DNA of 64,000 bases from Bryobacterales bacterium (lineage in GTDB: Bacteria > Acidobacteriota > Terriglobia > Bryobacterales > Bryobacteraceae): NCBI GenBank assembly GCA_003167495.1, contig PMSX01000265.1, forward strand, positions 1-64,000. The letters run 5' to 3'. This document shows positions 23,379 through 52,381 of the stretch, in pieces. A program made the translations under genes and the position numbers. Position 1 is the stretch's first letter. Every line of letters begins with the position of its first letter. The notes beneath the pieces were generated by a model, which was given only the letters and a program-made list of their open reading frames with translations, was not told the DNA's origin and made no database searches.

Positions 23379-24344
23379 ATGTCCTCATCGTGCGAATTAG
23401 AGCGGGCTGGAAGCATCCTCAAGTCGACGCATGCCGATCTGTTTTTGTCGAAACGGAGACTACGGCAAGCAGAAATGATCGAGATGGTCAGGCTGAAACG
23501 CGAAAGCGTCAGCCAGAATCTTGGATTTGCTTCCCGGCCATTTGTACTTTGCGGCTTGCCTGTAAAACGGCCCGAAAAAGGCGTGTTGCTGCACGAACGG
23601 CGCAACGGGCAGTTTCATCTTCAAGTCACCGGCCATCCGGCACATGGACTGCCTTGGGGTCAGGATCGACTTGTTCCCATTTTCCTAGCTACCTTGGCCA
23701 TCCGCCAACAGAGACAGACCATCAGCTTCCGAAGCGCGACCGAAATGCTCGATACCTTCGGAATGCAACAAGGTGGTTCGCAGTACAGGCGTCTGGTCGG
23801 GGCTTTCCAGCGGATCTTTGGGGCCACTATCTTTTTCGGTACGGACACACAACGCCAGAAAGCGCTTGTCGTTCATCAGGCTCGATTCAACTTCATGAGT
23901 GAAGCGCGGATCTGGTACTCGCGAGACCCGAATCAACAGACTCTCCCTGGCGAATGTCAAAACGCCGTTGTCCTGAGCAACGAGTTTTACCAGGAAATCA
24001 TGAGCCATCCGATCCCAACGGATCTGGAAGCTGCGAAGGCTCTCTCCTCGGCGCCGGCGGCGCTGGATCTGTTTACTTGGCTGTCTTATCGCTGTTTCAA
24101 CGCAAAGGGTGAAGATCGAATTCCCATCTTCGGGGATTTTGGCCTGGTTCACCAGATCGGTAGCGCGGACTATGCGAGACCGCGAAAGTTCCGTGAGCGT
24201 TTAGAGCGCTGGCTGGATTTGGTGAAGGCTTTGTGGCCAGACTGTCCGGCCCACATAAGCAACGACGGAGATTATCTGCTCGTAAACCGCGCTCATGCAG
24301 TGCTTGACGCAAGACCACTGGCTGAAAGGTGCCTGGCCGGATGA
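23379..24344 (+). CDS. repA: Plasmid replication initiator, RepA family
   Basis: 321 aa. The middle shows LVPIFLATLAIRQQ and TEMLDTFGMQQGGSQYRRLV, and the C-terminal half has APAALDLFTWLSYRCF, the conserved block of the RepA_C family of plasmid initiators (pVS1-like). LERWLDLVKALWPDC follows as the last helix. The protein should bind an origin, probably near its own leader, and start replication. The ATG at 23379 is chosen because GAAAGG sits 8 bp upstream. The stop overlaps the ATG of the next small ORF. A replication gene at the head of a conjugation cluster suggests the element can replicate as a plasmid. Confidence 0.8.
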   Translation: MSSSCELERAGSILKSTHADLFLSKRRLRQAEMIEMVRLKRESVSQNLGFASRPFVLCGLPVKRPEKGVLLHERRNGQFHLQVTGHPAHGLPWGQDRLVPIFLATLAIRQQRQTISFRSATEMLDTFGMQQGGSQYRRLVGAFQRIFGATIFFGTDTQRQKALVVHQARFNFMSEARIWYSRDPNQQTLPGECQNAVVLSNEFYQEIMSHPIPTDLEAAKALSSAPAALDLFTWLSYRCFNAKGEDRIPIFGDFGLVHQIGSADYARPRKFRERLERWLDLVKALWPDCPAHISNDGDYLLVNRAHAVLDARPLAERCLAG

Positions 24345-34167: not shown

Positions 34168-34673
34168 AAGAGACAAGGCTGGGTCTGTTTGCGGGTGTCT
34201 TCGTAGTGCTGGCGCTCAGTGTGCCAGAGGCGTTGAAACACTCTAATCTGCGGTTTAACGGTAGCGATAGCGTGCCAGTCGGACTGTACCAGGCGAGAGC
34301 GGAGCGCGCGCCGTATGCGGGCTTCTGTTTGAGTGAAGCGACGTTGCGGACTGCGTTAACGGCGGGGTTGGAGCTGGGCCGCGGCGAGTGTGCGGATGGA
34401 TATCAGCCAGTTTTGAAAACCGTCTATGAGGCGACACCGCAGGCGCCAATCACGTTAGATGCGGAGGGCTTCGCGGTTGGGAATCGTCGCATTCCGAACA
34501 CGCAGCCTAAAGCGTTTTCGAAAAAGGGTAAGCCGTTGACGCATTATCCGTTTGGGAGTTACACAGCCGGATTGTGGGCTATTTCCAGTTATAACCGGGA
34601 TTCGTTTGACTCACGTTATTTCGGACCGGTCTCGCAGTTGCGCTTTTACGCGAAGCCGCTCCTGGTGTTTTAG
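34164..34673 (+). CDS. traF: TraF-like conjugative transfer signal peptidase (S26)
   Basis: 169 aa. One N-terminal membrane segment leads to FNGSDSVPVGLYQ, the S26 nucleophile Ser region; the general-base Lys is probably that of VLKTV about 45 residues later. The C-terminus has RDSFDSRYFGPVS, a conserved block of TraF/LepB-type peptidases. In the RP4 system TraF cyclises the TrbC pilin, and a TrbC-type pilin is encoded in the same operon. GTG start overlapping the trbI stop. Confidence 0.85.
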   Translation: MKETRLGLFAGVFVVLALSVPEALKHSNLRFNGSDSVPVGLYQARAERAPYAGFCLSEATLRTALTAGLELGRGECADGYQPVLKTVYEATPQAPITLDAEGFAVGNRRIPNTQPKAFSKKGKPLTHYPFGSYTAGLWAISSYNRDSFDSRYFGPVSQLRFYAKPLLVF

Positions 34674-34700
34674 GCAGTTCGAGCAAAAAGGGGTTCACCG

Positions 34701-35648
34701 ATGGCAACAGAGAAAGCAGCGGACAATTTAGGGGCAAACCAGGTAAGCGGAGTTACTTCCGAGCAGATCGAACAGGCGGCGCAATTCGAACAGCGCTTTG
34801 GACCAACGGCGCCAGTCACGGCAAAGCAGGCGCTAGGGGCTGAGGCGTTGGGCGGGGAGTTGCAGGACGTCGCCAAACGACTTGAGCGCATCGCCGATTT
34901 TGTAGAGAGCGAAGGTTACGCACTTCGTCATGGGATCGACGGCATTCCCGAGCGTCCCGTTCGGGAAGACATCGAGATCAGCCTTGAAGAAGCGATGCAC
35001 CGATACCGCGATTCGGTCACCGATCAATCGCAAGCGACACCAAAGAACGTTGCCGAATACGAACAAGCCAAGAGCATTTCCAACGGTCTGCGGATGCAAT
35101 TCAACGCCGATACAGATGCGATCCGCAAGGTGACGGCTCAGAAGTTGCCGAAGCCAATCTCCGAGAGCGAGGTGCAAATTACGCAGCCGAATAAGGCACC
35201 AGAGCAAAAGCAGACCTACTCACGCGAGGACTTGATACGCCAGTTGCGCGCCTTTACCCAGAAGAAGGCCGAAGAACAAAAAAAGCGCGGCTATAACTAC
35301 ATCTCCGCTGAGGCGGCGATCGCGGCGAATCTCGCGAACCAACTGGAAGCGGGGGCAAAGAGAATTGATCTGTCTCAGGACTACGCGACGGATAACCCGG
35401 CTGCGGCGCAAGAGCGTCACGACAATGCACTTCGAAACCTCGCGCCCGTTTTGCGCGAAGCCGAAAAGCAAACTGAAAGCTTGAGCTACGGCCAGGCACT
35501 CGCGCACGGCAAAGGGGAAGTCTTGGCGGTTCAACAGTTGAATCGGGGTTTGGTCAATGCAAAGGGGTTACTTCAAAAAGCGTCGCACCATAACAACCAT
35601 CAAGCGCAAGCGCCGCGGCTTTCGATGTCGTCTGATGGGGGGATCTAA
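34701..35648 (+). CDS. Hypothetical protein of the transfer operon
   Basis: 315 aa, soluble, charged and mostly helical, with no signal peptide. Segments such as DVAKRLERIADFVESEGYAL and EDLIRQLRAFTQKKAEEQKK suggest coiled-coil character. It lies between traF and the coupling protein and ends 2 bp before the latter, so it is likely part of the DNA-processing or coupling set. I do not recognise a family; a relaxosome or KfrA-type accessory role is possible but not shown. Confidence 0.7.
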   Translation: MATEKAADNLGANQVSGVTSEQIEQAAQFEQRFGPTAPVTAKQALGAEALGGELQDVAKRLERIADFVESEGYALRHGIDGIPERPVREDIEISLEEAMHRYRDSVTDQSQATPKNVAEYEQAKSISNGLRMQFNADTDAIRKVTAQKLPKPISESEVQITQPNKAPEQKQTYSREDLIRQLRAFTQKKAEEQKKRGYNYISAEAAIAANLANQLEAGAKRIDLSQDYATDNPAAAQERHDNALRNLAPVLREAEKQTESLSYGQALAHGKGEVLAVQQLNRGLVNAKGLLQKASHHNNHQAQAPRLSMSSDGGI

Positions 35649-35650
35649 GG

Positions 35651-37801
35651 ATGCCAGGGGAGAATATTGAGCGTCAATCCACCGGGCCGCTCGGGGCTTT
35701 TCCCCTGCGCATTCCGCTTGGCAAGGTGTTGGCGGTTTTGGCGGCGTTGGCACTTACGCCTGCCTGGTGGGCCTTGAACGAGGCGCGGAGTCCGTTTCTA
35801 GAAAAGTTTTACGAGCGCACGTACTGGCTTAGTTTGCGGGATAGCTTCGCTGTGGCGCCAGGCGGGCAGCCGTTGGCGGCTGAATACGAAGTAGCACTCG
35901 AAAACACGCCAAACGGCTTAGCGCTCGCCGGCGTCGAGGATGCCGAGGAGTTTCGGGGGACGCTCATCATTCAAAAGCAAAGCTTGAATCCCAAACTGTT
36001 TCACGACTGGCTCAAAGATCACGTTTACCACGGCTCCGCGCTCAATAGGTACGGTTTGCTTGGCGCAGTCGAGACGGCTTCATTTTTCGTTTTACTGATG
36101 TTCGGTGCGAACTTTGATCGACGCCGGCGACTCTCCGCGATGGACGGAACACACCGGCGTGGTACGCGCTTCATTTGCTGGCAGCGGTTCAACGGCGAGC
36201 AACTCGGGCCGCTGTGGCGGCTCTGGATGTTCTTTTCCTACCGGCGGTTGGCTTCTACCAAAGTGCAAGCGGCGATCCGGCGAAGTAGGCGGTGGGCGGC
36301 CACCCCCGCGTGTTATCGGGCTGCGGCTGGACGAGTGGCGCGATTTTTGCGCTTTGTCGGGTTGCGTTGGCCTGGTGCTGAGGGGCCGGGCCTGGCGCTG
36401 GAGATCGGACTCCTGGCGAGGGCGGTGATCAGTGAGGAGTTGATTCCCTATCACTTAAATTTGTTCGGTGGAACGGGGCGCGGCAAAAGCACCCTGATCC
36501 GGAACATCATTCTATTGATTCGCGCACGGAACGAAACGTTTGTGGTGCATGATCCGAAACGCGAGTTTTACCGGGAGTTCTATCGGCCTGGCATTGATTG
36601 GGCCATCGATCCGCGTTTAGAAGAGTGTCCGTATTGGGCGATGGAAGACGAAGCCGCGGACGAGCCCGAAGCCACACCGTGGGCCTCGAGCTTCTTTCCC
36701 GAACATCCCAGAAGTCAACCGTTTTTTGTCAGGAAGCCGAGGGCGATTTTCGCTTATCTGATGTCTCGCTACTCAGCTCACAATGAGCCGGGTGAGCCGG
36801 CGACGTGCGCGCGGCTTGGTTCATGGCTGAGCGGTGGTGAGAGCGAGATTCTGAAGCGCGTGAAAGGCACGGAACACTATCGGAGTCTGAATCGCGGCGG
36901 TTCTACAACAGTCGAAATTAGCGATATGTCTCAAAGCCTCTTTACGACTTTGGGAGAAATCGCCAAAGTTCTGCGCATGATGCCGGCAAGTCCGGAAGGG
37001 CGGCGGCGCTTCTCATTGCGCGAGTGGAAAAAGAATCGCCAGGGCTGCATTTTCTTGTGTTCCGAGCCGGAAACGCAAGAGGCAATTATGCCGCTTCATA
37101 CCGCTATTGCGGACATGGCGATTCTCCACACGCAAGCGGAAGTTCACGGCCGGGATGTCCCGCGCGTCTGGTTTGTGTTCGACGAAGCCGCGACCATGGG
37201 CCGGGTTGGCCAACTCGAAAGCGGCATGACAAAACAAAGGGCGTCAGGGAATCCGATTGTGTTGGGCTTTCATGATTTGCCGCAACTGGAACAACGCTAC
37301 GGCGAAAAGGGTGCGCAGACAATTACGGCGCAAGCCTACACAAACATAATCGTCGGCACTGGCTCAGACAAAGAAGCCGCTCACATCGAAAAGATGATCG
37401 GCCATGAAGAAATTGACCGGGTGACGGAGAATCGGCCCTGGCATTTACTGCTGTTCAACAAGGGCCACCGGGCGCGCTCGGTCACGAATCAGATCACGTC
37501 TACGGCGCCAGTGACGGCGGCGGAGATCCAAGCATTACCGCGCTTTCACGGCTACATGCTGCAGGAAGGCCGTGTCCTTCGGTTTAAGATCCGGCGCCCA
37601 CGAAAGAAGGGCGCTCTAATCGAGCCTGTTTTGCGGACCATTCCGCCGCTGATCTTCCGTGAAGATCCCGCCGAGAGCCTTCCGGCCGCCGATGGCGTGG
37701 TGGTTTGTCCGGTGGACGATCCAATTCCGGCGCCGTGGAACTTTGACGACTTCCGAACGGATGTTTTAGAGGGCGAGAAAGCGCTGGCAGGGAAGGCTTA
37801 G
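35651..37801 (+). CDS. Type IV coupling protein (VirD4/TraD/TrwB type)
   Basis: 716 aa. Two membrane segments near the N-terminus (about 22-42, and 135-155) precede the motor domain. Walker A is LFGGTGRGKSTLIRNI (~275) and Walker B is VWFVFDEAATM (~510), followed by GQLESGMTKQRASGNPIVLG. The TAQAYTNIIVGTGSDKEAAH region is typical of the TrwB/TraD C-lobe. It recruits the relaxase-DNA complex to the channel. The gene lies just before the MobF relaxase, as in R388-type systems where the coupling protein and relaxase are neighbours. Confidence 0.9.
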   Translation: MPGENIERQSTGPLGAFPLRIPLGKVLAVLAALALTPAWWALNEARSPFLEKFYERTYWLSLRDSFAVAPGGQPLAAEYEVALENTPNGLALAGVEDAEEFRGTLIIQKQSLNPKLFHDWLKDHVYHGSALNRYGLLGAVETASFFVLLMFGANFDRRRRLSAMDGTHRRGTRFICWQRFNGEQLGPLWRLWMFFSYRRLASTKVQAAIRRSRRWAATPACYRAAAGRVARFLRFVGLRWPGAEGPGLALEIGLLARAVISEELIPYHLNLFGGTGRGKSTLIRNIILLIRARNETFVVHDPKREFYREFYRPGIDWAIDPRLEECPYWAMEDEAADEPEATPWASSFFPEHPRSQPFFVRKPRAIFAYLMSRYSAHNEPGEPATCARLGSWLSGGESEILKRVKGTEHYRSLNRGGSTTVEISDMSQSLFTTLGEIAKVLRMMPASPEGRRRFSLREWKKNRQGCIFLCSEPETQEAIMPLHTAIADMAILHTQAEVHGRDVPRVWFVFDEAATMGRVGQLESGMTKQRASGNPIVLGFHDLPQLEQRYGEKGAQTITAQAYTNIIVGTGSDKEAAHIEKMIGHEEIDRVTENRPWHLLLFNKGHRARSVTNQITSTAPVTAAEIQALPRFHGYMLQEGRVLRFKIRRPRKKGALIEPVLRTIPPLIFREDPAESLPAADGVVVCPVDDPIPAPWNFDDFRTDVLEGEKALAGKA

Positions 37802-37810
37802 CAGAGCTAA

Positions 37811-40588
37811 ATGGTGACCGGCAAGCCAATGACGGGAGGTGAGACTTATCTGGCGAATCACCTCTCTAATAACGATTACTATTCCGAGGGTGAAAAAGTC
37901 ACCGGCCAATGGCTGGGCTATGGCGCGGAGAAACTCGGCTTGTCGGGGGAAGTCACAATTGAACAGTTTGAAGCCATCCGTCAGGGAAATGACCCATCAA
38001 CGGGTGAGTTCCTTCGCCAGCGTCAGAGTGCCGATCGCTATGGGGAAGTAACCCGCAATGGCAAGACAGAAATTGAAAAGACTGGCACGGCTCGCAACCT
38101 CTACGACTTCACCGTGAGCGCTCCGAAAGACCTTTCGGTACAAGCGGTGTTTGACTCGCGTTTAGTCGATGTCTGGAACAGAGCGGTAAGTGAAACGGCG
38201 GTAGAGATGGAGAAGCTCGCCGCTGTTCGCGTACGCAAGGGCGGCTTAGATGAAAACCGCATCACCGGGAACATGATCATTGCGCGTTATGACCATGACG
38301 CGAGCCGTGAATTAGACCCGATGCTTCATAGTCACTTGGTAGCAGCTAACCTTTCGTGGGATCACGTCGACGGCAAATGGTACGCGCTGCAGGCCTCCGA
38401 GATCTTCGACCAGCGTGCGTACCTCACCGAATTTTGCCGGAATGTGGCGGCGCGGGAAACCATGAAGCTCGGCTATGAGATCGAGGACCACTTCAAGGGC
38501 GGTGAGGATAACGGCTTCGGCATCAAAGGCATGACGGAAGAAACGCGAGAGAAGTTCAGCCAGCGCAGCAAGCAACGCGATGAAGCCATTGCGGACTTTA
38601 TGGAAGAACACGGGCGGCGGCCGTCTAACCGGGAAATCGCGTTACTCGTTCGGGACTCCCGGCCTGAAAAGCTGGCGGAAATCGCCACCGCTGATGTGAA
38701 AGCCAGGCAGTGGGCGCGCCTCACTTCCGAGGAAATCGAGCGAGGAAAAACGCTTCATAAAGAGGCGTTAGAGCGGGGATCGGTCTTAGAAGTTGCACCG
38801 GCCGGGGCTTCGCTGAGCTACTCAATAGAGCACACGTTTGAGCGGCTTTCTGTCGCTAAACACTACGAACTGAAAACAGAAGCTTTACGGCATGGCCGCG
38901 GGCGAATTGACGCGGAGGAGCTGGCCGGCGAACTGGCGGCGGCGGTGGCTAGGCGCGAGATGATTAGCGCGCGTGGTGAGGTTGCCACGCAAGCGACTCT
39001 GCAGCGTGAGCTTGACATGAAAGCTTACATCGATGAGGGCGTAAACCGATATGGACCGCTGGGCCGGGGCCTCGCCTTTGAACCGTCTACCACGTTGCGA
39101 AGTGAGCAAAGAGAAGCCGTATTAGGCGCACTGGCAAACAAAGATTTTGCGTTCAACATCAGTGGTAGCGCCGGCGTCGGGAAGACGTACCTGCTGAAGG
39201 ATATGAAGCGCGGACTCAAAGAAGCGCGCGTAAGTCTGACGGTTGTCGCGCCAAGCGCTAAAGCAGTGCAGGTTCTGCATGAAGATGGCTTTCCCGAGGC
39301 CATGACTATTGCGCGGCTGCTGGTCGATCCGGCTCAGCGAGCGCAGCTCAGCGGCGGCGTGCTCCTGGTTGATGAAGCGGGATTCGTTTCCAGCCAAGGC
39401 ATGTTTGATCTGGAGACTTTGGCGAAAGAGCAGGGAGCGCGCATCGTCTTCGCTGGCGATACCTACCAAATCAAAAGCGTAGAGCAGGGCGATGCTCTCC
39501 GGATCTTAGAGCGCGAGTCTCAACTTCAAACGGTTTCCGTCCGGGAGATTATCCGCCAGAAAAACGAAGAGTACAGAGTAGCGATGGAGACATTGCGAAA
39601 GAAGCCGGAAGAAGGCTTTGAACTGCTCGAAGAGATGGGCGCCATCCGTCAGGTGGACTGGCGGTTGATCGGCCGGGAAACGGCTCATGCCTGGCGCGAA
39701 GCTGCCGCTATTCCAAATGTGGACGGCAAAGAGCGTTCTGTCCTGGTGGTGACGCGTACCCATGACCAGATTGCCTCCATCACGCACGCCATTCGCGCAG
39801 ACCGCAAGGCTCACGGAGAAATCGGGGAAGGCCGAGAGTTTGAGAAACACCGATCTTTGGACTGGACCGAAGCGGAAAAAAAGCAGTTTAAGCGCTATCA
39901 GCCCGGCCAGATTATCACCTTCCACAAAAAAGTGGTGGGCATTGCAAAGAACGAATCTTTGGAGGTGGTTTCCCACACCAGAGACAGCGTGACGGCGTGC
40001 AAAGCGAACGGACAGGAAGTAACTCTCACCGCGAAGCAATCGAAGGCGTACAGCGTGTTTGAGCGCGAGCAAATGGAGATTTCGGCGGGTGACCGCTTAC
40101 TCTTACAGGTCAATTGGAAAGAAAAAGGGCGGGACGGCTTCAAAGCGACGAACGGCGAACTCGTCACAGTCAAGAGCATTGACGGCGGGGTCATGACGCT
40201 TGAAGACGGCCGCCGGTTGCCGGCGGGCTATAAGCAGTTCACAAGCGGGTATGCGGTCACGGCTCACGTTAGCCAGGGAGACGGTGCCGATGTCGTTATT
40301 GCGGTGCCGGATGGCATGCGGCGTGATTTGGCCTATGTGACCTTCACCCGCGGCAAAGAGGGAATTATCGTCATTACCTGCGATGCCGAAACCCTACGCG
40401 AAACGCTGGGCATCTCTGGCGATCGCCAGTCGGCCAGCGAACTCGCTCAGCGGGCCGACTGGGCCAAAAAGGTCAAGAGCGAAGATCAGCGGATTTATCA
40501 GAAGTTCCACGAACCGCCGGCAGAATCGGCGAAAAAACAAACGATCAAAGAGGAGATTACACACCATGCCCGTATCAGAGTTAGTTAG
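37811..40588 (+). CDS. MobF relaxase-helicase (TrwC/TraI type)
   Basis: 925 aa. The N-terminal relaxase domain (about 1-300) has catalytic Tyr candidates at NDYYSEG, the metal-binding His in ARYDHDASRELDPMLHSHLV (three His), and FTVSAPKDLSVQAVF. A UvrD/RecD-like helicase follows, with Walker A ISGSAGVGKTYLL (~455), VLLVDEAGFVSSQ (Walker B) and the C-terminal motifs GYAVTAHVSQGDGAD and YVTFTRGKEGI. The protein nicks oriT, becomes covalently bound to DNA and unwinds it. Length matches TrwC (about 966). The last 23 bp overlap the next gene. Confidence 0.93.
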   Translation: MVTGKPMTGGETYLANHLSNNDYYSEGEKVTGQWLGYGAEKLGLSGEVTIEQFEAIRQGNDPSTGEFLRQRQSADRYGEVTRNGKTEIEKTGTARNLYDFTVSAPKDLSVQAVFDSRLVDVWNRAVSETAVEMEKLAAVRVRKGGLDENRITGNMIIARYDHDASRELDPMLHSHLVAANLSWDHVDGKWYALQASEIFDQRAYLTEFCRNVAARETMKLGYEIEDHFKGGEDNGFGIKGMTEETREKFSQRSKQRDEAIADFMEEHGRRPSNREIALLVRDSRPEKLAEIATADVKARQWARLTSEEIERGKTLHKEALERGSVLEVAPAGASLSYSIEHTFERLSVAKHYELKTEALRHGRGRIDAEELAGELAAAVARREMISARGEVATQATLQRELDMKAYIDEGVNRYGPLGRGLAFEPSTTLRSEQREAVLGALANKDFAFNISGSAGVGKTYLLKDMKRGLKEARVSLTVVAPSAKAVQVLHEDGFPEAMTIARLLVDPAQRAQLSGGVLLVDEAGFVSSQGMFDLETLAKEQGARIVFAGDTYQIKSVEQGDALRILERESQLQTVSVREIIRQKNEEYRVAMETLRKKPEEGFELLEEMGAIRQVDWRLIGRETAHAWREAAAIPNVDGKERSVLVVTRTHDQIASITHAIRADRKAHGEIGEGREFEKHRSLDWTEAEKKQFKRYQPGQIITFHKKVVGIAKNESLEVVSHTRDSVTACKANGQEVTLTAKQSKAYSVFEREQMEISAGDRLLLQVNWKEKGRDGFKATNGELVTVKSIDGGVMTLEDGRRLPAGYKQFTSGYAVTAHVSQGDGADVVIAVPDGMRRDLAYVTFTRGKEGIIVITCDAETLRETLGISGDRQSASELAQRADWAKKVKSEDQRIYQKFHEPPAESAKKQTIKEEITHHARIRVS

Positions 40589-40928
40589 CACTTCACCGGA
40601 CTGGCAAACCGCCAAAGGCGACGAGCAGAAGCCCGAATCTCTATTCGTGCAGCTTCGCCGCAGCGCCTTCGTTTTCCCCTGGTTTCGGTTTGTTTATGCG
40701 GAGGGCGAGAGCGCAAAGATTGTCATAGTTTTTGCGACACACCAGCTCACGGTCACTGGCCGAGGCCTGGGCGCGTTGCTGACAGCTATCGCGAGCCAGC
40801 GCGTAGTAAGACTGCTGGAACCCAGCCAGAGCGAAGCCACGCTTGGCGTACGCATGCCGGGCGCGGTCAAGCATGACGGGCCGGCCATCGAGTCCATTTC
40901 AGTCAAGAATCTCAGCGAAGAGAATTAG
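40566..40928 (+). CDS. Hypothetical 120-aa protein after the relaxase
   Basis: Starts with MPVSELVSTSPDWQ inside the end of the relaxase gene. The core FVFPWFRFVYAEGESAKIVI then FATHQLTVTGRGL looks like a small beta-rich domain; there is no signal peptide or membrane helix. A longer in-frame version beginning at 40383 would overlap the relaxase further and is less likely. The translational overlap with the relaxase suggests a relaxosome role, but no function is known to me. Confidence 0.65.
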   Translation: MPVSELVSTSPDWQTAKGDEQKPESLFVQLRRSAFVFPWFRFVYAEGESAKIVIVFATHQLTVTGRGLGALLTAIASQRVVRLLEPSQSEATLGVRMPGAVKHDGPAIESISVKNLSEEN

Positions 40929-40983
40929 GAAAGACCCTCTCGAAATGTATCGGAACGTAGTCAAAACTCGCGCAAAAATACGA

Positions 40984-41043
40984 GGTGCAAATGAGGTGCG
41001 GAATGGGTGCTCGAAGGGTGCAAAGAGGGTGCGCGAAGGGTGC
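40984..41043 (+). repeat. Six-copy 11-bp iteron array (GGTGC boxes)
   Basis: GGTGC occurs at 40984, 40995, 41006, 41017, 41028 and 41039, each exactly 11 bp after the last, with the unit approximating GGGTGCnnGAA. One unit per helical turn places all boxes on one DNA face. The array lies in a noncoding stretch between the relaxase region and a small DNA-binding gene followed by a ParA-like ATPase. It is a strong candidate for a centromere, operator or relaxosome binding site. Confidence 0.8.
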
Positions 41044-41073
41044 GCCAAAGCATGGTTTTTCGATGAAGGTTTT

Positions 41074-41094
41074 CCTAACGCCGAAGGCGTTAGG
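41074..41094 (+). promoter_or_regulatory. Perfect 9-bp hairpin with GAA loop
   Basis: CCTAACGCC (41074-41082) and GGCGTTAGG (41086-41094) are exact inverted repeats around GAA. No T-run follows on either strand, so it does not look like a simple terminator. Position 30 bp after the iteron array suggests part of an oriT or partition site, or an extruded structure recognised by the relaxase. Confidence 0.6.
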
Positions 41095-41237
41095 GATAGT
41101 GTCTCTTTCTTCAGTAGTTGCTGTGACCCACACTGCCTCTTTGTGCATATGCCTACGTGGGTCCGAGATGCCCATGTCTTGGTTGTTTTTGCTGGTGTGG
41201 AAATTGCTGGATCGTACGACACAAAGGAGGGCCAATC

Positions 41238-41690
41238 ATGCCCGGTTCTCTGAGTCCGAAAGATCTTCACACTTTGGTAAACCTGCCACTGGACGAGTCT
41301 CACTCCCGCCTCGGACCTTACAAAGAATTGATCCTACGCTGGCGAAGGCAGGGCAGGGGCTACACCAGAATTCGGGAACTGTTGGCGGAAAAGTGCTCGG
41401 TCACTATATCGCGGCAAGTCCTCACACGGTTCATTAAGCGGCACTCGAAAGCGCGTAAGGCTGAACGGGATTTACAGGACCAACTGGATTTAGACCTGGA
41501 ACCGGCAACACCACTCGGCCAGGCGTCGAGTTCCGGGAGCAAGAGGCTAACGCCCGAGGAACGGGCCGCTGCAGTCGCACATATTCGCTCTCTCAATAGC
41601 AAGCCCGTCGTCAAAGAACAGCAACCGCCAAGCGGTTGGGACCTCTTAGAGCCGGACAACGTAAGTTTTAGACGCAAAGGAGATAAATAG
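41238..41690 (+). CDS. Small DNA-binding protein upstream of ParA
   Basis: 150 aa. AAAGGAGG precedes the ATG by 9 bp. ELILRWRRQGRGYTRIRELL and SVTISRQVLTRFIKRHSK form a likely helix-turn-helix of about 50 residues near the N-terminus; the C-terminal half is polar and Pro/Glu-rich. It ends 1 bp before the ParA-like gene and the 11-bp repeats lie about 200 bp upstream, so it is the most likely protein to bind them. It may be a partition adaptor, operon repressor or relaxosome factor; this is inference. Confidence 0.7.
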   Translation: MPGSLSPKDLHTLVNLPLDESHSRLGPYKELILRWRRQGRGYTRIRELLAEKCSVTISRQVLTRFIKRHSKARKAERDLQDQLDLDLEPATPLGQASSSGSKRLTPEERAAAVAHIRSLNSKPVVKEQQPPSGWDLLEPDNVSFRRKGDK

Positions 41691-41691
41691 G

Positions 41692-42450
41692 ATGGCAGCA
41701 GCATCAGTAGTAGAGATTTCGGCTCAGAAGGCGAAGCCCACGAGCCGGATTGTATTCACGGAAGGCGGCAAGGGCGGCGTAGGAAAGTCCGCATTCTCAA
41801 CCATGCTCGTTGAGTGGTACCGAAAGCAGGGCGCGCCGGTCGCCTTGATCGACATGGATAGTGAGAACAAGAGCCGGGGATCGCTCGCCCATTTCTTCCC
41901 CGAGGCGAGGAAAACGAACATCCAAACTGAGCGCGGGCTGGATGGATTACTGTTCGCGCTGGCGGAGGGTACGCCGATTGTGGTAGCAGACATGGGCGCG
42001 AGTGCCGGCGACGTTGCTCACGAGTGGTTTGACTCGATGTATGAGTCGGCGGCTGACAGCGGAGTCGCTTTCACAGCGATCGGCATTGTTACGCCAGATC
42101 CGGCCAGTGTTTCAAGTGTTGTTTCTTGGGGCAAATTTCTGCGGGATCGGGTTGATTACGTAGTTGTGAAAAACTCGATCACTAACCCGGCAGACTTTAG
42201 CGTCTGGGAAACCGATCCGGAGGCTGAGAAGTTTCGGCGCCTGGCTCAGCCAAAGGTCATCACAATGCAATACCGAGTGCAGGATATCGAGCAGGTGGCG
42301 CGGCAGCATGGCGTGACCATGCAGGCTGTGGCAAACGGAGGCGTTGACATTCCGGGGCTCAAGGAAATGCCGAACGTGATGCGCGCCGGCGGCTACCGTA
42401 AAAACATCTTTGCGCAGTTAGACACAGTAAAGGGGCTGCTACTTCTGTGA
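41692..42450 (+). CDS. ParA-like P-loop ATPase
   Basis: 252 aa. The deviant Walker A is KGGVGKSAFSTML, with signature Lys, followed by VALIDMDSENKSRGSLAHFF and VVADMGASAGDVAHEWF for the A'/B motifs. Length fits ParA/MinD-type ATPases of plasmids and ICEs, and also the TraL-type ATPases of IncP. It could move the DNA during partition or place the transfer machinery. Its stop overlaps the start of the next gene (GTGA), giving a coupled trio with 41238 and 42447. Confidence 0.82.
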   Translation: MAAASVVEISAQKAKPTSRIVFTEGGKGGVGKSAFSTMLVEWYRKQGAPVALIDMDSENKSRGSLAHFFPEARKTNIQTERGLDGLLFALAEGTPIVVADMGASAGDVAHEWFDSMYESAADSGVAFTAIGIVTPDPASVSSVVSWGKFLRDRVDYVVVKNSITNPADFSVWETDPEAEKFRRLAQPKVITMQYRVQDIEQVARQHGVTMQAVANGGVDIPGLKEMPNVMRAGGYRKNIFAQLDTVKGLLLL

Positions 42451-43085
42451 GCGTCACAACTCTGAGAAAATGCGTTGACGAACCGGACGCGTGGAGTGAC
42501 ATAGTGCAGCGGCTGACGGCTGACAAAGACCGTCAGGAGTTTGCAGAGCTGTTGCACTGGTTTCGGTCACAGCCGGCGGATGACGAGTTTTCGAAAGTCG
42601 CGAAGCTCCTGGGATTTCTCACCCTCGTTGGAAACAATTTACCGGAGGCCCTAGCAGAGGAAGCTAGGGCTATCCGGTCTTTGAGTGAGCGAATAGAAAA
42701 GGCCAACGCGGCGACGGATGAACGGCTCTCAAAGCTTCCTTCCGAAATCGCGGCGGGCCTTGATCCATCCGCGATCGCTAAAGAAATGAGCCACAGTTTC
42801 CGGCAGCAGTTGAGCCAAACCGCTTTACACGAGACCGCTTCGCTCATGAAGGCGGCGGTGATCACGCTCAAGTCTTTGTCTACCGAACTGGTGACCACAC
42901 TGCAGCCGATCAGTGTCACGTTGGGGGAGCAGACGACAACCCTGCTAGCAACGCTGAAACAGGTGAACGAATTCGAGCAGCGTCCGCCAGCGCCGGCAAG
43001 TTCTGGGGCGGTTGCGCTCCAGTCGTTTCTCTTCTTCGCGGTTTTCGTGGCCGGCGGCGTGGCGGGTTACTTGCTCCACCACTGA
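42447..43085 (+). CDS. Membrane-anchored hypothetical protein
   Basis: 212 aa, GTG start overlapping the ParA-like stop. The body is helical and charged (AEEARAIRSLSERIEKANAA; TLGEQTTTLLATLKQVNEFE), with coiled-coil character, and the C-terminus is one membrane helix (SFLFFAVFVAGGVAGYLLHH). This arrangement resembles TraM/MobB-like conjugation proteins that tether a partner to the membrane. The ATPase-then-tail-anchored order is suggestive of a positioning module. Function is not recognised. Confidence 0.7.
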   Translation: MSVTTLRKCVDEPDAWSDIVQRLTADKDRQEFAELLHWFRSQPADDEFSKVAKLLGFLTLVGNNLPEALAEEARAIRSLSERIEKANAATDERLSKLPSEIAAGLDPSAIAKEMSHSFRQQLSQTALHETASLMKAAVITLKSLSTELVTTLQPISVTLGEQTTTLLATLKQVNEFEQRPPAPASSGAVALQSFLFFAVFVAGGVAGYLLHH

Positions 43086-43092
43086 GGTATCT

Positions 43093-43269
43093 ATGCTCAC
43101 GCATTCGTTGTTTTCTCTTAGATGTGTATGTGGCGCGCAGCTCCGCGGCGAGGGCAAAACGGGGACGTGTCCGACTTGCAAACGTGAGTTTCGGATTGAA
43201 TGGCCGGCTGAGTACGAAGCTGACGAAGACAAAGAGCCCGGCGCCGGAACGAAGACGGCGGCGGCCTGA
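43093..43269 (+). CDS. Zinc-ribbon small protein, copy 1
   Basis: 58 aa. CVCGAQLRGEG and CPTCKREF give a CxC-x(n)-CxxC zinc knuckle. It ends in a polar tail with TKTAAA. A closely related gene lies at 44402-44566 (54 aa) with the same KGKTGTCPTCKREF-like core and the same end, and the two DNA segments match closely over about 95 bp. The gene begins 8 bp after the membrane-anchored protein stop. Function unknown; it may bind DNA or a protein partner of SSB. Confidence 0.7.
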   Translation: MLTHSLFSLRCVCGAQLRGEGKTGTCPTCKREFRIEWPAEYEADEDKEPGAGTKTAAA

Positions 43270-43443
43270 AGGAAAACATATGAGCATTGAAGATCGGCGG
43301 GATTGAACGGCGGCAGTGACGATTCCGGGGAAAAAGAAGACTGGGTCATTGAGAGGGCTGTGGTCGCCGGCAGTTGAAGACGAGGACAAATCGGTTGAAA
43401 AAAGTGTAACGAAGACGTTAGAGAAGAAAAGGACAAACAAATT

Positions 43444-43899
43444 ATGGCTTCCCGTAGTGTGAATAAAGTGATTTTGATTGGGAATTTGGGCCGCGATGCC
43501 GAGACGAAGTTTACTCCGTCAGGCGTGGCCGCGACGCGGTTTTCCGTTGCTACATCGCGACGTTGGAAAGACAAGGAGTCGGAAGAATGGAAAGAAGAAA
43601 CGAATTGGACGAATGTGATTCTTTGGCGCTCCGAAAACTTGACGAACTACCTTCTGAAAGGCAAACAAGTTTACGTTGAAGGGCGGCTTCAGACTCGCAG
43701 CTACGACGACAAAGATGGCAAAAAGGTATATGCCACGGAAGTGGTCGCCGAGGAAGTGCTTCTACTCGGTGGTCAGGTCGAAGGCCAGAATGCCCAACCA
43801 CAGGCCGCGCGCGCAGCCGCTGGCGGTGGCGGCAGAAGCAAGGCCTCCGGGGCCGGCGATGACGAAATGCATGTCACGGACGATGACATCCCGTTTTGA
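43444..43899 (+). CDS. ssb: Single-stranded DNA-binding protein
   Basis: 151 aa. OB-fold residues include VNKVILIGNLGRDAETKFTP, ATRFSVATSRRWKDKE, TNWTNVILWRSENLTNYL and KGKQVYVEGRLQTRSY. It ends in the acidic DDEMHVTDDDIPF tail that binds partner proteins. Plasmid-type SSBs protect the transferred strand and recruit replication proteins. The neighbours on both sides are the paired zinc-ribbon genes. Confidence 0.95.
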   Translation: MASRSVNKVILIGNLGRDAETKFTPSGVAATRFSVATSRRWKDKESEEWKEETNWTNVILWRSENLTNYLLKGKQVYVEGRLQTRSYDDKDGKKVYATEVVAEEVLLLGGQVEGQNAQPQAARAAAGGGGRSKASGAGDDEMHVTDDDIPF

Positions 43900-44401: not shown

Positions 44402-44566
44402 ATGCTTTTTTCTGTTAGATGTATTTGTGGCGAACAGTTACGCAGCGAGGGCAAAACGGGAACGTGTCCGACTTGCAAACGCGAGTTTCGTATCGAGTCG
44501 CCGGCCGACTACCAACCGCAAGAGCAAGAGAAAGAGCCCGTGGCCACGAAGACTGCGGCGGCGTAA
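44402..44566 (+). CDS. Zinc-ribbon small protein, copy 2
   Basis: 54 aa: MLFSVRCICGEQLRSEG followed by KTGTCPTCKREFRIESPADY. CxC and CxxC pairs are kept, as in copy 1 at 43093, and the terminal TKTAAA is identical. The DNA outside the conserved 95 bp differs, so the duplication is not very recent. A longer frame from 44255 exists, but it would run through the leader hairpin and is unlikely. Confidence 0.65.
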   Translation: MLFSVRCICGEQLRSEGKTGTCPTCKREFRIESPADYQPQEQEKEPVATKTAAA

Positions 44567-49838: not shown

Positions 49839-50294
49839 GTGACCGTCCACTATCGGTGGCACCCTTTGTTTGGCCAAGTATTGCCTGTTCACAAACGGAT
49901 GAAGGATCGCCACGGCGAGCACATTTTCGTCGAACTGGCGGATGAAACAATCTGTTCACTGCCTGCGTGGATGTTCAGTCCAGAATGTGCAATTTTCTCG
50001 GTGAGCTCACCTTTAGTCGCGGTCGACGCCTTGACTTCTCTTCGCGAGTTCTTATCCAGTTTGCAATGCCCTAACGATTGCGCTAAGTCTTCAGTGAATC
50101 CAACTCCGAAGGAGAGGGCAAGTGAAGCCATCGATTCCCAAAAGAAACGCGCAACTGAACCTGCCGCTGCTCGACGTTCCGGCAACGGTTCTCCCAGACA
50201 ACAAACAGCAAGAACTGGTAAGGGCACTCGTGGAGCTGCTCATGAGCGCGGCAAACGAAAAGCTCGATCAACCAATAAGCCGAGGCAGCGATGA
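49839..50294 (+). CDS. DUF5372-like protein of the serine recombinase element
   Basis: 151 aa, GTG start. TVHYRWHPLFGQVLPVHKRM and FVELADETICSLPAWM match, as I recall, the DUF5372 family that is usually encoded with this type of serine recombinase. The C-terminal third is basic and low-complexity. It overlaps the next small ORF in another frame. Function is not known; it may aid recombination. Confidence 0.65.
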   Translation: MTVHYRWHPLFGQVLPVHKRMKDRHGEHIFVELADETICSLPAWMFSPECAIFSVSSPLVAVDALTSLREFLSSLQCPNDCAKSSVNPTPKERASEAIDSQKKRATEPAAARRSGNGSPRQQTARTGKGTRGAAHERGKRKARSTNKPRQR

Positions 50295-50310
50295 ATCTCA
50301 AGCTGACTAA
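50122..50310 (+). CDS. Small accessory protein of the serine recombinase element
   Basis: 62 aa, GTG start with GGAGAGGG about 8 bp upstream. LLDVPATVLPDNKQQELVRA and LVELLMSAANEK form a helical body. It overlaps the end of the preceding gene and the start of the recombinase by 20 bp, so all three are co-translated. Short proteins in this position are typical of the element family. Function unknown. Confidence 0.6.
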   Translation: MKPSIPKRNAQLNLPLLDVPATVLPDNKQQELVRALVELLMSAANEKLDQPISRGSDESQAD

Positions 50311-52381
50311 TGATCGCCTTCAACGGCGAGCCATTATTTACGTTCGGCAGTCCTCTATGGGACAGGTAACGAACAACCACGAAAGCCGCCGTCGTCAATA
50401 CGGCCTCGCAGATCGAGCACGCGAATTAGGGTTCCACAATGTCACCGTGATCGACGACGATCTTGGGCGCTCGGGATCCGGCTTGGTGGAGCGCCCCGGA
50501 TTTCAACGGTTAGTTGCCGAGGTCTGCACCGGGGAAGTCGGCGCCGTGTTTTGCATTGAGGCCTCTCGGCTCGCCCGCAACGGTCGTGACTGGCATCATC
50601 TCATCGAGCTTTGTGGAATGGTAGGAGCGGTTGTCGTAGATCCAGACGGCGTCTATGATCCGGGCATCATCAACGATAGGCTGCTGTTGGGTTTAAAAGG
50701 CACCATGAGTGAGTTTGAATTGAACCTACTCCGGCAGCGATCGTTGGAAGCGATTCGGCAGAAAGCCGGCCGAGGAGAACTACAGTTTCTTCTGCCAGTG
50801 GGATTGTGCTGGACCGCCGCCGGTAAGATCGAGAAGGATCCGGACCAACGTGTACAACAAGCGATTCAGTTGGTATTCGCCAAGATGATGGAGCTTGGAA
50901 GCGTTCGGCAGGTTCTGCTATGGTTCCGACAAGAGAGCATCAGCTTGCCAGCGTTGCCACGCGATCCTGGCGAACCGAGAATGATTTGGAAGATTCCCGT
51001 CTACAACGTCGTGCTGAAGATTTTGACGAATCCGATCTATGCCGGAGCGTACGCATTCGGAAAGACACAAAGTCGAATCGCCGTTGTCGATGGTCGCGCG
51101 AGGAAAACCGCGGGACACCGCAAGCCGCGGCCAGACTGGACCGTCTTGATTCGCGACCACCATCCCGGTTACATTTCTTGGGAGCAGTATGAACGTAATC
51201 AGGCGCTGATTGCGGCCAACACGAATATGAAGTCACGCATGGAGCCGAAGGCAGGTCGCGGAGGGCGCGCATTGCTCGCGGGGATTCTGCGGTGTCGGCG
51301 TTGCGGCCGAATGTTGCACGTCACCTATTCCGGTCTTGGAGCGGCCGCGTTGCGTTACCACTGTAGAGGTGCGCACATCAATCATGGCGCCAGTTGGTGT
51401 ATCTCGTTCGGCGGTCTTCGAAGCGATCAGGCAGTAGCCAATGAAGTCCTTCACGCCATCAGTGGAAACGCCATTGAGGCGGCACTGGACGCGGCCGCGC
51501 AGATGCATCAACAGCGTCAGGATCAGCGGCGATCACTCGAACTGGAAGTCGAGCAAGCTCGATATGAAGCGCGCTTGGCCTCGCGAAGATATGAATCCGT
51601 GGACCCGGACAATCGTCTAGTCGCCGCGGAGTTAGAAGCTCGCTGGAACGATGCCCTGCGAAAGTTCGAAGGGCTGGAGATCAAGCTGCACGAGTTCGAC
51701 AGTTTCATAACTTCCGCTGCGATGCCTGACAAGGAGATCCTTCTGAGTCTCGTGCAAGATCTTCCGGCGGTCTGGCACGCGCCGTCTTCCGACATGCGAT
51801 TGAAGCAGCGGATTGTTCGAATTCTCATTCGCGAGATTGTTGCCGACGTGGATGAGAACAGTAACGAGATCGTGCTTGTCATTCACTGGGCCGGAGGGCG
51901 TCATTCGGAACTCCGCGTGAAGAAGAATGCAACTGGAAGACACAGCCACTGCACCAGCATGGAAGCGATCGAAGTGATTCGACAGATGGCCGGCAAGTTT
52001 CCTGACGAACAGATCGCCGCAACGCTGAACCGGCTTGGGTTCTCAACCGGTGCCGGCAAAACGTGGAATGAGCAGCGCGTGTACTCCGCGCGCCACTACA
52101 ATGAACTGCCCGCCTACAATCCAAACCAAACCAATCAGGACATCCTTACGATGGAGGAGGCCGCACAGCGTCTGGGCGTGAGCACGACAACCGTACGACG
52201 ATTGATCGAACAGAAGAAACTGGCCGCCACTCAAGTGGTCCCATGTGCTCCGTGGCAGATTGCCATCGCCGCCTTGGACGCAGCAGCAGTAAGAACTGCG
52301 GTAAACAAAATCAAGAACGGAGTGCGCGTCCCGCGAACTCTCCTTGACGACAAGCAGCAACGAATGTTTCCAAAAGGTTAG
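50291..52381 (+). CDS. Large serine recombinase
   Basis: 696 aa. The resolvase domain (about 10-150) has the nucleophile Ser in IYVRQSSMGQ, the Arg of CIEASRLARNGRDW and KGTMSEFELNLLRQR. The Recombinase domain follows, then a zinc ribbon (LRCRRCGRMLHVTY ... CRGAHINHGASWC) and a coiled coil (about 400-480). A C-terminal MerR/excisionase-type helix-turn-helix (MEEAAQRLGVSTTTVRRLIE) completes it. The protein probably excises and inserts its own element, which sits in istB. No sign of damage. Confidence 0.92.
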   Translation: MNLKLTNDRLQRRAIIYVRQSSMGQVTNNHESRRRQYGLADRARELGFHNVTVIDDDLGRSGSGLVERPGFQRLVAEVCTGEVGAVFCIEASRLARNGRDWHHLIELCGMVGAVVVDPDGVYDPGIINDRLLLGLKGTMSEFELNLLRQRSLEAIRQKAGRGELQFLLPVGLCWTAAGKIEKDPDQRVQQAIQLVFAKMMELGSVRQVLLWFRQESISLPALPRDPGEPRMIWKIPVYNVVLKILTNPIYAGAYAFGKTQSRIAVVDGRARKTAGHRKPRPDWTVLIRDHHPGYISWEQYERNQALIAANTNMKSRMEPKAGRGGRALLAGILRCRRCGRMLHVTYSGLGAAALRYHCRGAHINHGASWCISFGGLRSDQAVANEVLHAISGNAIEAALDAAAQMHQQRQDQRRSLELEVEQARYEARLASRRYESVDPDNRLVAAELEARWNDALRKFEGLEIKLHEFDSFITSAAMPDKEILLSLVQDLPAVWHAPSSDMRLKQRIVRILIREIVADVDENSNEIVLVIHWAGGRHSELRVKKNATGRHSHCTSMEAIEVIRQMAGKFPDEQIAATLNRLGFSTGAGKTWNEQRVYSARHYNELPAYNPNQTNQDILTMEEAAQRLGVSTTTVRRLIEQKKLAATQVVPCAPWQIAIAALDAAAVRTAVNKIKNGVRVPRTLLDDKQQRMFPKG

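Follow-up and report, generated by a model that had tools for sequence, protein, structure and literature searches.

The closest described counterparts of the locus analysed here are the stbABC operon and stbDR repeats of plasmid R388 (IncW) and the stb region of plasmid R46 (IncN). In both, a three-gene operon lies beside the origin of transfer (oriT), its first gene encoding a small helix-turn-helix (HTH) protein and its second a ParA-like ATPase, in the company of a MOBF relaxase, of direct repeats every 11 bp, and of a hairpin followed by TGTCT on the strand of the stb genes. Studies of R388 are reported to have demonstrated that StbA is required for plasmid stability, restrains transfer and attaches to its own repeats in vitro, and that it acts through those repeats in both stability and transfer; StbB is described as necessary for transfer only when StbA is present, and as dispensable for stability (PMC3098194). 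How StbA can distribute plasmids with a ParA-like partner that is dispensable in this way is a question left unanswered in the same account, which counts TraK/TraL of RP4 and MobC/MobD of pTF-FC2 as StbA/StbB-like pairs with a Walker A motif of the KGGXXK type (PMC3098194). A further report describes NAH7 TraD, called a StbA homologue, as binding its own oriT region (PMC12421886). In the ParMRC systems of Clostridium perfringens, related conjugative plasmids are reported to carry ParR/parC adaptor-centromere pairs that differ in specificity (PMC9426499).

The window (the whole stretch of 64,000 nucleotides that was analysed, from an assembled genome of the Bryobacterales) contains a locus in which each of the features shared by R388 and R46 recurs. 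Its six-box repeat array is most likely a StbA-type array attached to an origin of transfer, within the following set of features:

35651-37801, + strand: type IV coupling protein, TrwB/TraD-like (Pfam TrwB_AAD_bind, 1.2e-58)
37811-40588, + strand: MOBF (TrwC-like) relaxase-helicase (Pfam TrwC, 2.8e-65; NCBIfam MobF above cut-off)
40566-40928, + strand: open reading frame of 120 aa, kept beside oriT in related elements (conserved position)
40984-41049, + strand: six 11-bp units, each starting GGTGC; predicted StbA-binding array, stbDR-like (repeat analysis; 11-bp arrays in the same place in related elements)
41074-41094, + strand: perfectly paired hairpin, CCTAACGCC-gaa-GGCGTTAGG, which the relaxase is predicted to recognise in oriT (arms covary among 30 loci)
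41095-41104, + strand: nic-like sequence GATAGTGTCT, directly 3' of the hairpin (likeness to the R388 sequence)
41238-41690, + strand: StbA-like protein of 150 aa, with predicted HTH helices at residues 26-37, 42-53 and 59-69 (AF2 model; profile comparison)
41412-41444, + strand: codons of the third HTH helix (residues 59-69), the predicted box reader (covariation peak at 53-70; AF2 helix)
41692-42450, + strand: StbB-like ParA-type ATPase, Walker A KGGVGKS (Pfam CbiA, 9.7e-8)
42447-43085, + strand: protein of 212 aa in the StbC position, with a C-terminus that is hydrophobic by eye (conserved position)
43444-43899, + strand: single-strand binding protein (SSB), 3' of the stb-like operon (Pfam SSB, 5.4e-35)

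Genes resembling TrbE, TrbL and TrbG lie farther upstream of the coupling protein gene, and may belong to a secretion system of the MPF_T type. The element as a whole, the borders of which were not found, may be an ICE or a plasmid that has integrated, about 30 kb in size; the genes upstream of 22498 (alpha-amylase, glycogen debranching enzyme) appear chromosomal, a RepA-like gene at 23379-24344 (Pfam RepA_C, RPA) adjoins a VirB11-like gene, and a large serine recombinase gene (50291-52381) is located at the other end of the element from the RepA-like gene. Two small open reading frames of the leading region share a 108-bp repeat that is 84% identical between its copies (43111-43218 and 44408-44515), and carry CxC and CPTC motifs (possible zinc ribbons).

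Comparison with known stb systems

A first-pass annotation of this DNA had placed the repeats between relaxase and partition genes, as is borne out by the MOBF relaxase gene upstream and the ParA-like ATPase gene downstream, and had suspected a helix-turn-helix in the product of the next gene, with which the three helices of the AF2 model agree. That model is confident only around residues 21-70 (mean pLDDT 68). Neither the StbA-like protein (at E<=1), nor the 120-aa reading frame, nor the protein in the StbC position matched any family in Pfam or NCBIfam. A ParABS (type I) or ParB-parS reading was set aside, the protein encoded beside the ParA-like gene being the StbA-like one, with no match to a ParB family in these databases at E<=1.

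Within the HTH region, comparison with StbA of the R388/R46 type by hhalign (P=6.7e-5, probability 64%) is suggestive of homology to R388 StbA, while profile comparison of the ATPase with R388-type StbB (probability 22%, P=9.3e-4) gives a weak indication of the same kind. The DNA-binding domain of R388 StbA is represented by PDB entry 7pc1; a PDB profile search with the StbA-like protein did not bring up that entry (the best match, E=0.18, was to other proteins), and a Foldseek search against the PDB gave no matches at E<=0.001, with 7pc1 absent among the 46 matches listed. The system was therefore filed as StbABC-like and probably related, because its layout, period and position at oriT match, while homology is suggestive for StbA and weak for StbB.

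Several differences mark it as a divergent variant of the StbABC kind. The repeats of R388 are located on the stbA side of nic, whereas the array in the window lies on the opposite side of both nic and hairpin; R388 carries two sets of five repeats and the window one set of six, with different box words; and the relaxase gene and stb-like operon of the window are codirectional, unlike those of R388 and R46. The KGGVGKS motif of its StbB, found here with a MOBF relaxase, is assigned to plasmids of the MOBP type in the published comparison (PMC3098194). RP4 and pTF-FC2 have MOBP relaxases where the window has MOBF, and are likened to it through description and protein family; the NCBIfam TraL model scores far below its cut-off against the window ATPase (E=0.003). 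The ParMRC system of C. perfringens differs in being an actin-type partition system in which specificity was measured (PMC9426499), whereas specificity in the window is predicted.

The 11-bp array

GGTGC begins on the + strand at 40984, 40995, 41006, 41017, 41028 and 41039, a spacing of exactly 11 bp, just as the first-pass annotation had described it. The span it had assigned, 40984-41043, begins correctly and stops at the last GGTGC, short of the full units that reach 41049, and it missed the adjoining hairpin and nic-like site (41074-41104). Since neighbouring units are thus offset by roughly one helical turn, all six would sit nearly on one face of the helix.

Such regularity is exceptional within the window. 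When runs of identical 5-mers were sought at every constant spacing from 8 to 30 bp, the longest comprised six copies in the window and three in Markov sequences (ten of order 1 and ten of order 3, each of 64 kb). All five occurrences of GGTGC-N6-GGTGC in the window fall within the array, whereas 100 shuffles contained 0.16 on average and never more than 2. Across the 342 bp around the array, the repeat score is 11.08 at period 11, against a maximum of 7.20 among 200 shuffles; when the window was divided into 364 overlapping tiles of 350 bp, both tiles that hold the array reached 11.08 (period 11), and the runner-up reached 7.61 (period 12).

The predicted origin of transfer

Beside the gene for a MOBF relaxase, the window has a conserved nic-like sequence that directly follows a hairpin. 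By analogy with its position in R388, nic itself would lie after position 41104. A hairpin with an RTRGTGT motif was found at 30 loci; with the stem numbered from the loop, these show two Watson-Crick types at pairs 2-4 and three at pairs 6-8. The arms of the hairpin thus change together, because several Watson-Crick pair types occur at these positions; since the hairpins were searched for as perfect ones, it is this variety of pair types, and not the percentage of paired positions, that constitutes evidence. One hairpin, at locus L100, has a single mismatch, the locus having been found by its motif.

In all 13 of the 13 group-1 elements, which include the window, the start of the last box precedes the nic-like motif by 54-58 nt. 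In the 11 elements of group 2, the stbA gene is reversed; on the nic strand the array still precedes the hairpin, and the polarity of the boxes relative to nic is kept with a phase shift of 2-3 nt. The distance from the best six units to the motif ranges from 22 to 88 nt in this group, in part since some arrays are longer. Because order and polarity relative to nic persist where stbA is reversed, the array belongs to oriT and not to the stbA promoter. In the window, the orientation of hairpin and predicted nic points towards the stb-like genes, and in group 2 stbA lies on the opposite side; if the nic assignment is right, that arrangement contradicts the statement that stb genes are always found on the first-entering side (PMC3098194).

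Conservation among related elements

The genome from which the window comes (9.4 Mb, contamination 7.6%) holds nine matches to the StbA-like protein, which is matched in 6 of the 100 genomes searched, that genome included; an alignment-based search found it in 13 of the 237 family genomes and in 3 of the 396 sampled across the phylum, the own genome being counted in both. The nearest named relatives are Bryobacterales MAGs. No tblastn match was found for the protein at E<=0.1 in 72,556 plasmid records, and a relative gave five records, the best at E=1.

The order relaxase, small reading frame, intergenic region and stbA is kept in 14 elements, the window included, and in the same elements stbB and stbC follow stbA and the coupling protein precedes the relaxase as far as the contigs extend (in L104 the stbB match is split over two frames). 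A three-gene stbA-stbB-stbC-like operon beside oriT, and direct repeats of 11-bp period upstream of stbA, are present in the window, with R388 and R46 as controls for the repeats. The first-pass annotation had proposed a search for the phased array in related elements, regarding its absence there as a refutation; strong 11-bp arrays were found upstream of StbA homologues in 28 of 42 rows (26 distinct arrays), again including the window, an outcome that does not refute the reading. These 42 rows (the window being L188) remained from 44 after removal of L116 (short) and L171 (masked stretch), with L105 and L111 each counted twice. The best period was 11 in 34 of the 42; 28 reached at least 8.5, a threshold chosen after the 44-row result was known, and no other period reached that score. 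The 14 rows in which a strong array was absent belong mainly to remote homologues, and also to L100, the array of which has a 1-bp slip. In L105 (2880-3617) and L111 (8279-9223), from two genomes, a tandem pair of StbA-like genes lies behind one 11-bp array.

No period-11 array scoring at least 8.5 was found within 1.5 kb upstream at any of 64 distant ParA-like loci, mostly cyanobacterial, of which three reached the threshold at period 9, as did four downstream control regions at periods 8-10. From an initial 71 loci, L027-L029 had been excluded as near relatives, and L046, L061, L065 and L086 by manual choice, because the contig was short or offered little sequence upstream. StbA-like genes are present at two of the 64, L030 and L090, the former (from Oligoflexia) with a weak array (7.56). 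Among ten proteobacterial stb regions, period 11 was the best in nine; in seven, R388 and R46 included, none of 200 shuffles reached the array score. The arrays of L193 (8 of 200 shuffles) and L190 (85 of 200) were weak, and L195 had none.

Plasmid pACPOL3 of Acidisarcina polymorpha, the StbB homologue of which is 36% identical, was considered and not counted as support, its repeats having a period of about 10 (score 8.15, reached by 0 of 200 shuffles). An unannotated reading frame in the stbA position before that homologue (L098:9426-9885), with GTGACA-like repeats of about 10 bp upstream, is perhaps a stbA counterpart on an element with a different relaxase type.

Box sequence and the predicted recognition region of StbA

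The layout is conserved across these elements and the box sequence is not. GGTGC in the window is replaced elsewhere by GGTTGYC (as in L099), CAGATCA, GGGCGACA, TCGAACA, GGTCAAA, TAACAAA, CCGATAA, CCGATCA, GGTTGACA and GGGCGAC (L102), among others. Within group 1 (n=13), the distance between box profiles correlates with divergence at StbA residues 54-68 (r=0.51, p=0.001), and shows no correlation with StbA residues 12-38 (0.03), the StbA tail at 75-150 (-0.07) or the relaxase (0.10). The choice of residues 54-68 followed inspection of boxes and alignment; a sliding scan of StbA, which is less biased, places the peak at residues 53-70. When L107, which shares helix and box with L099, was left out, residues 54-68 still gave r=0.40 (p=0.0035). 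The third HTH helix of the AF2 model (59-69) falls within this stretch, and is predicted to read the boxes.

The same residues, tested afterwards in group 2 (n=11), gave r=0.60 (p=0.0005), and other parts of StbA correlate there too (0.38 for 14-38 and 0.30 for 39-53). Pooling all 24 elements, which mixes in group ancestry, gave 0.58 for residues 54-68 as compared with 0.51 for 14-38. This sample left out L100 (its slipped array being matched by 10 of 200 shuffles), L105 and L111 (tandem StbA genes), L116, the masked L171, and, for want of a strong array, L030, L090, L157, L158, L159, L162, L163, L170 and L182-L185. Associations of single residues with single bases (341 tests over 24 elements, 60 shuffles each) were exploratory and confounded by ancestry; the top two pairs involve residues 41 and 43, outside the third helix, and no code table is claimed.

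L106 is 87% identical to the window in DNA over 41584-43275 (the end of stbA, stbB and stbC), and over 39970-41584 shares a single 48-bp match, its contig ending before the gene for the coupling protein is reached. In L107, identity to the window is 85-95% across most of 34601-38013 (the end of the preceding gene, the coupling protein and the start of the relaxase) and 78% over 41584-43258, with two short matches (115 and 73 bp) between 38013 and 41584. StbB of the window is 92% identical to that of L106 and 91% to that of L107, while in StbA residues 54-70 match at 6 and 4 of 17 positions and residues 26-53 at 19 and 17 of 28, respectively. The simplest account of these alignments would be the exchange of a block comprising relaxase, oriT, array and the head of StbA, with one border inside stbA; fast divergence is a possible alternative.

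Alternative explanations

That the array is the binding site of the protein encoded at 41238-41690, in a StbABC-type system on a MOBF element acting as laid out below, is the reading that we favour, at a probability of about 0.68. The most serious competitor, though one to which we assign considerably less weight, holds that StbA binds the array solely as a relaxosome accessory or to restrain transfer, and plays no role in segregation. The placement of the array against the hairpin, and its fixed polarity relative to nic even where stbA is reversed, would suit such a role, as would the binding of NAH7 TraD to its oriT region (PMC12421886), but the repeats of R388 serve StbA in stability as well as in transfer (PMC3098194). 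It is improbable that the array is instead an operator at which the HTH protein acts to control the stb-like operon or the genes for transfer. Although the repeats do lie upstream of the HTH gene, and in group 2 start about 87-148 bp before stbA, the array in the window ends 188 bp before stbA, with the hairpin and nic-like site in between, and a search of 40900-41260 for promoters of the sigma-70-like type found none. The simple-operator version was thus the weakest of the readings offered by the first-pass annotation; in group 2, where the array is close upstream of stbA, an operator role is possible.

Slightly less probable still is the binding of the boxes by another protein, such as the relaxase or the product of the small reading frame at 40566-40928, which is kept beside the array. 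In that reading frame, the best of 22 windows of 15 columns shows a weak correlation with box sequence (r=0.28, p=0.017), but over its whole length r is 0.12 (p=0.16), and StbB (r=-0.07; n=12, with partial pieces where a contig ended or a frame was broken) and the relaxase (0.10) likewise stand below the best 15-column window of StbA (r=0.49, the best of 37). Finally, the direct repeats are short and phased and the element has a RepA-like gene, so they could be replication-origin iterons bound by RepA, yet that gene is about 17 kb away and the arrays of related elements are found at oriT beside stbA, which makes this explanation very improbable indeed.

Proposed mechanism and implications

Returning to the StbABC-type reading, the array, hairpin and nic would form a composite site, in which the six StbA boxes, nearly aligned along one helical face, are followed by the relaxase hairpin and finally by nic. 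StbA would bind the 11-bp ladder, probably cooperatively, through its third HTH helix; StbA on the array would spread copies of the element evenly and restrain the oriT region from transfer; and the ParA-like StbB would free that region, or carry it to the transfer apparatus. Binding, cooperativity, segregation and transfer control are here inferred by analogy with R388. The centromere and relaxosome site that had initially been offered as separate readings are merged in this scheme, consistent with the invariant 54-58 nt spacing in 13 of 13 elements and with the covariation of group-1 boxes with StbA residues 54-68.

A broader proposal, given somewhat less than even odds, is that StbA and the six-box array constitute an exchangeable identity code, in which a fixed scaffold is linked to oriT, box word and recognition helix change together and move as a cassette, and separate addresses for segregation and transfer let related elements coexist in one host. 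The presence of different boxes within a single genome would be in keeping with a role in compatibility, as for ParR/parC (PMC9426499). Close box pairs in group 1 number 0 of 26 within genomes and 8 of 52 between them (p=0.028), in group 2 they number 3 of 7 and 10 of 48, and over all 24 elements there is no within-genome avoidance (3 of 33 as compared with 18 of 243), so that selection for compatibility is unproven. Because these counts are mixed, and MAGs may mix strains, the compatibility role is confined to this broader proposal.

As far as the literature searches show, the acidobacterial branch, the position of the array beyond nic, the combination of a MOBF relaxase with a KGGVGKS StbB, and the covariation of box and helix are new. 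The locus extends the oriT-Stb layout to the Bryobacterales (Acidobacteriota), and the 24 compared pairs of StbA and array form a natural series that shares its geometry while its sequence varies; in the window's group, the residues likely to do the reading are conspicuous. The specificity of StbA, what the 11-bp ladder is for, and how inheritance, transfer and compatibility are connected thereby become directly testable, and if the identity code is true, the code that relates helix to box could be readable from sequence.
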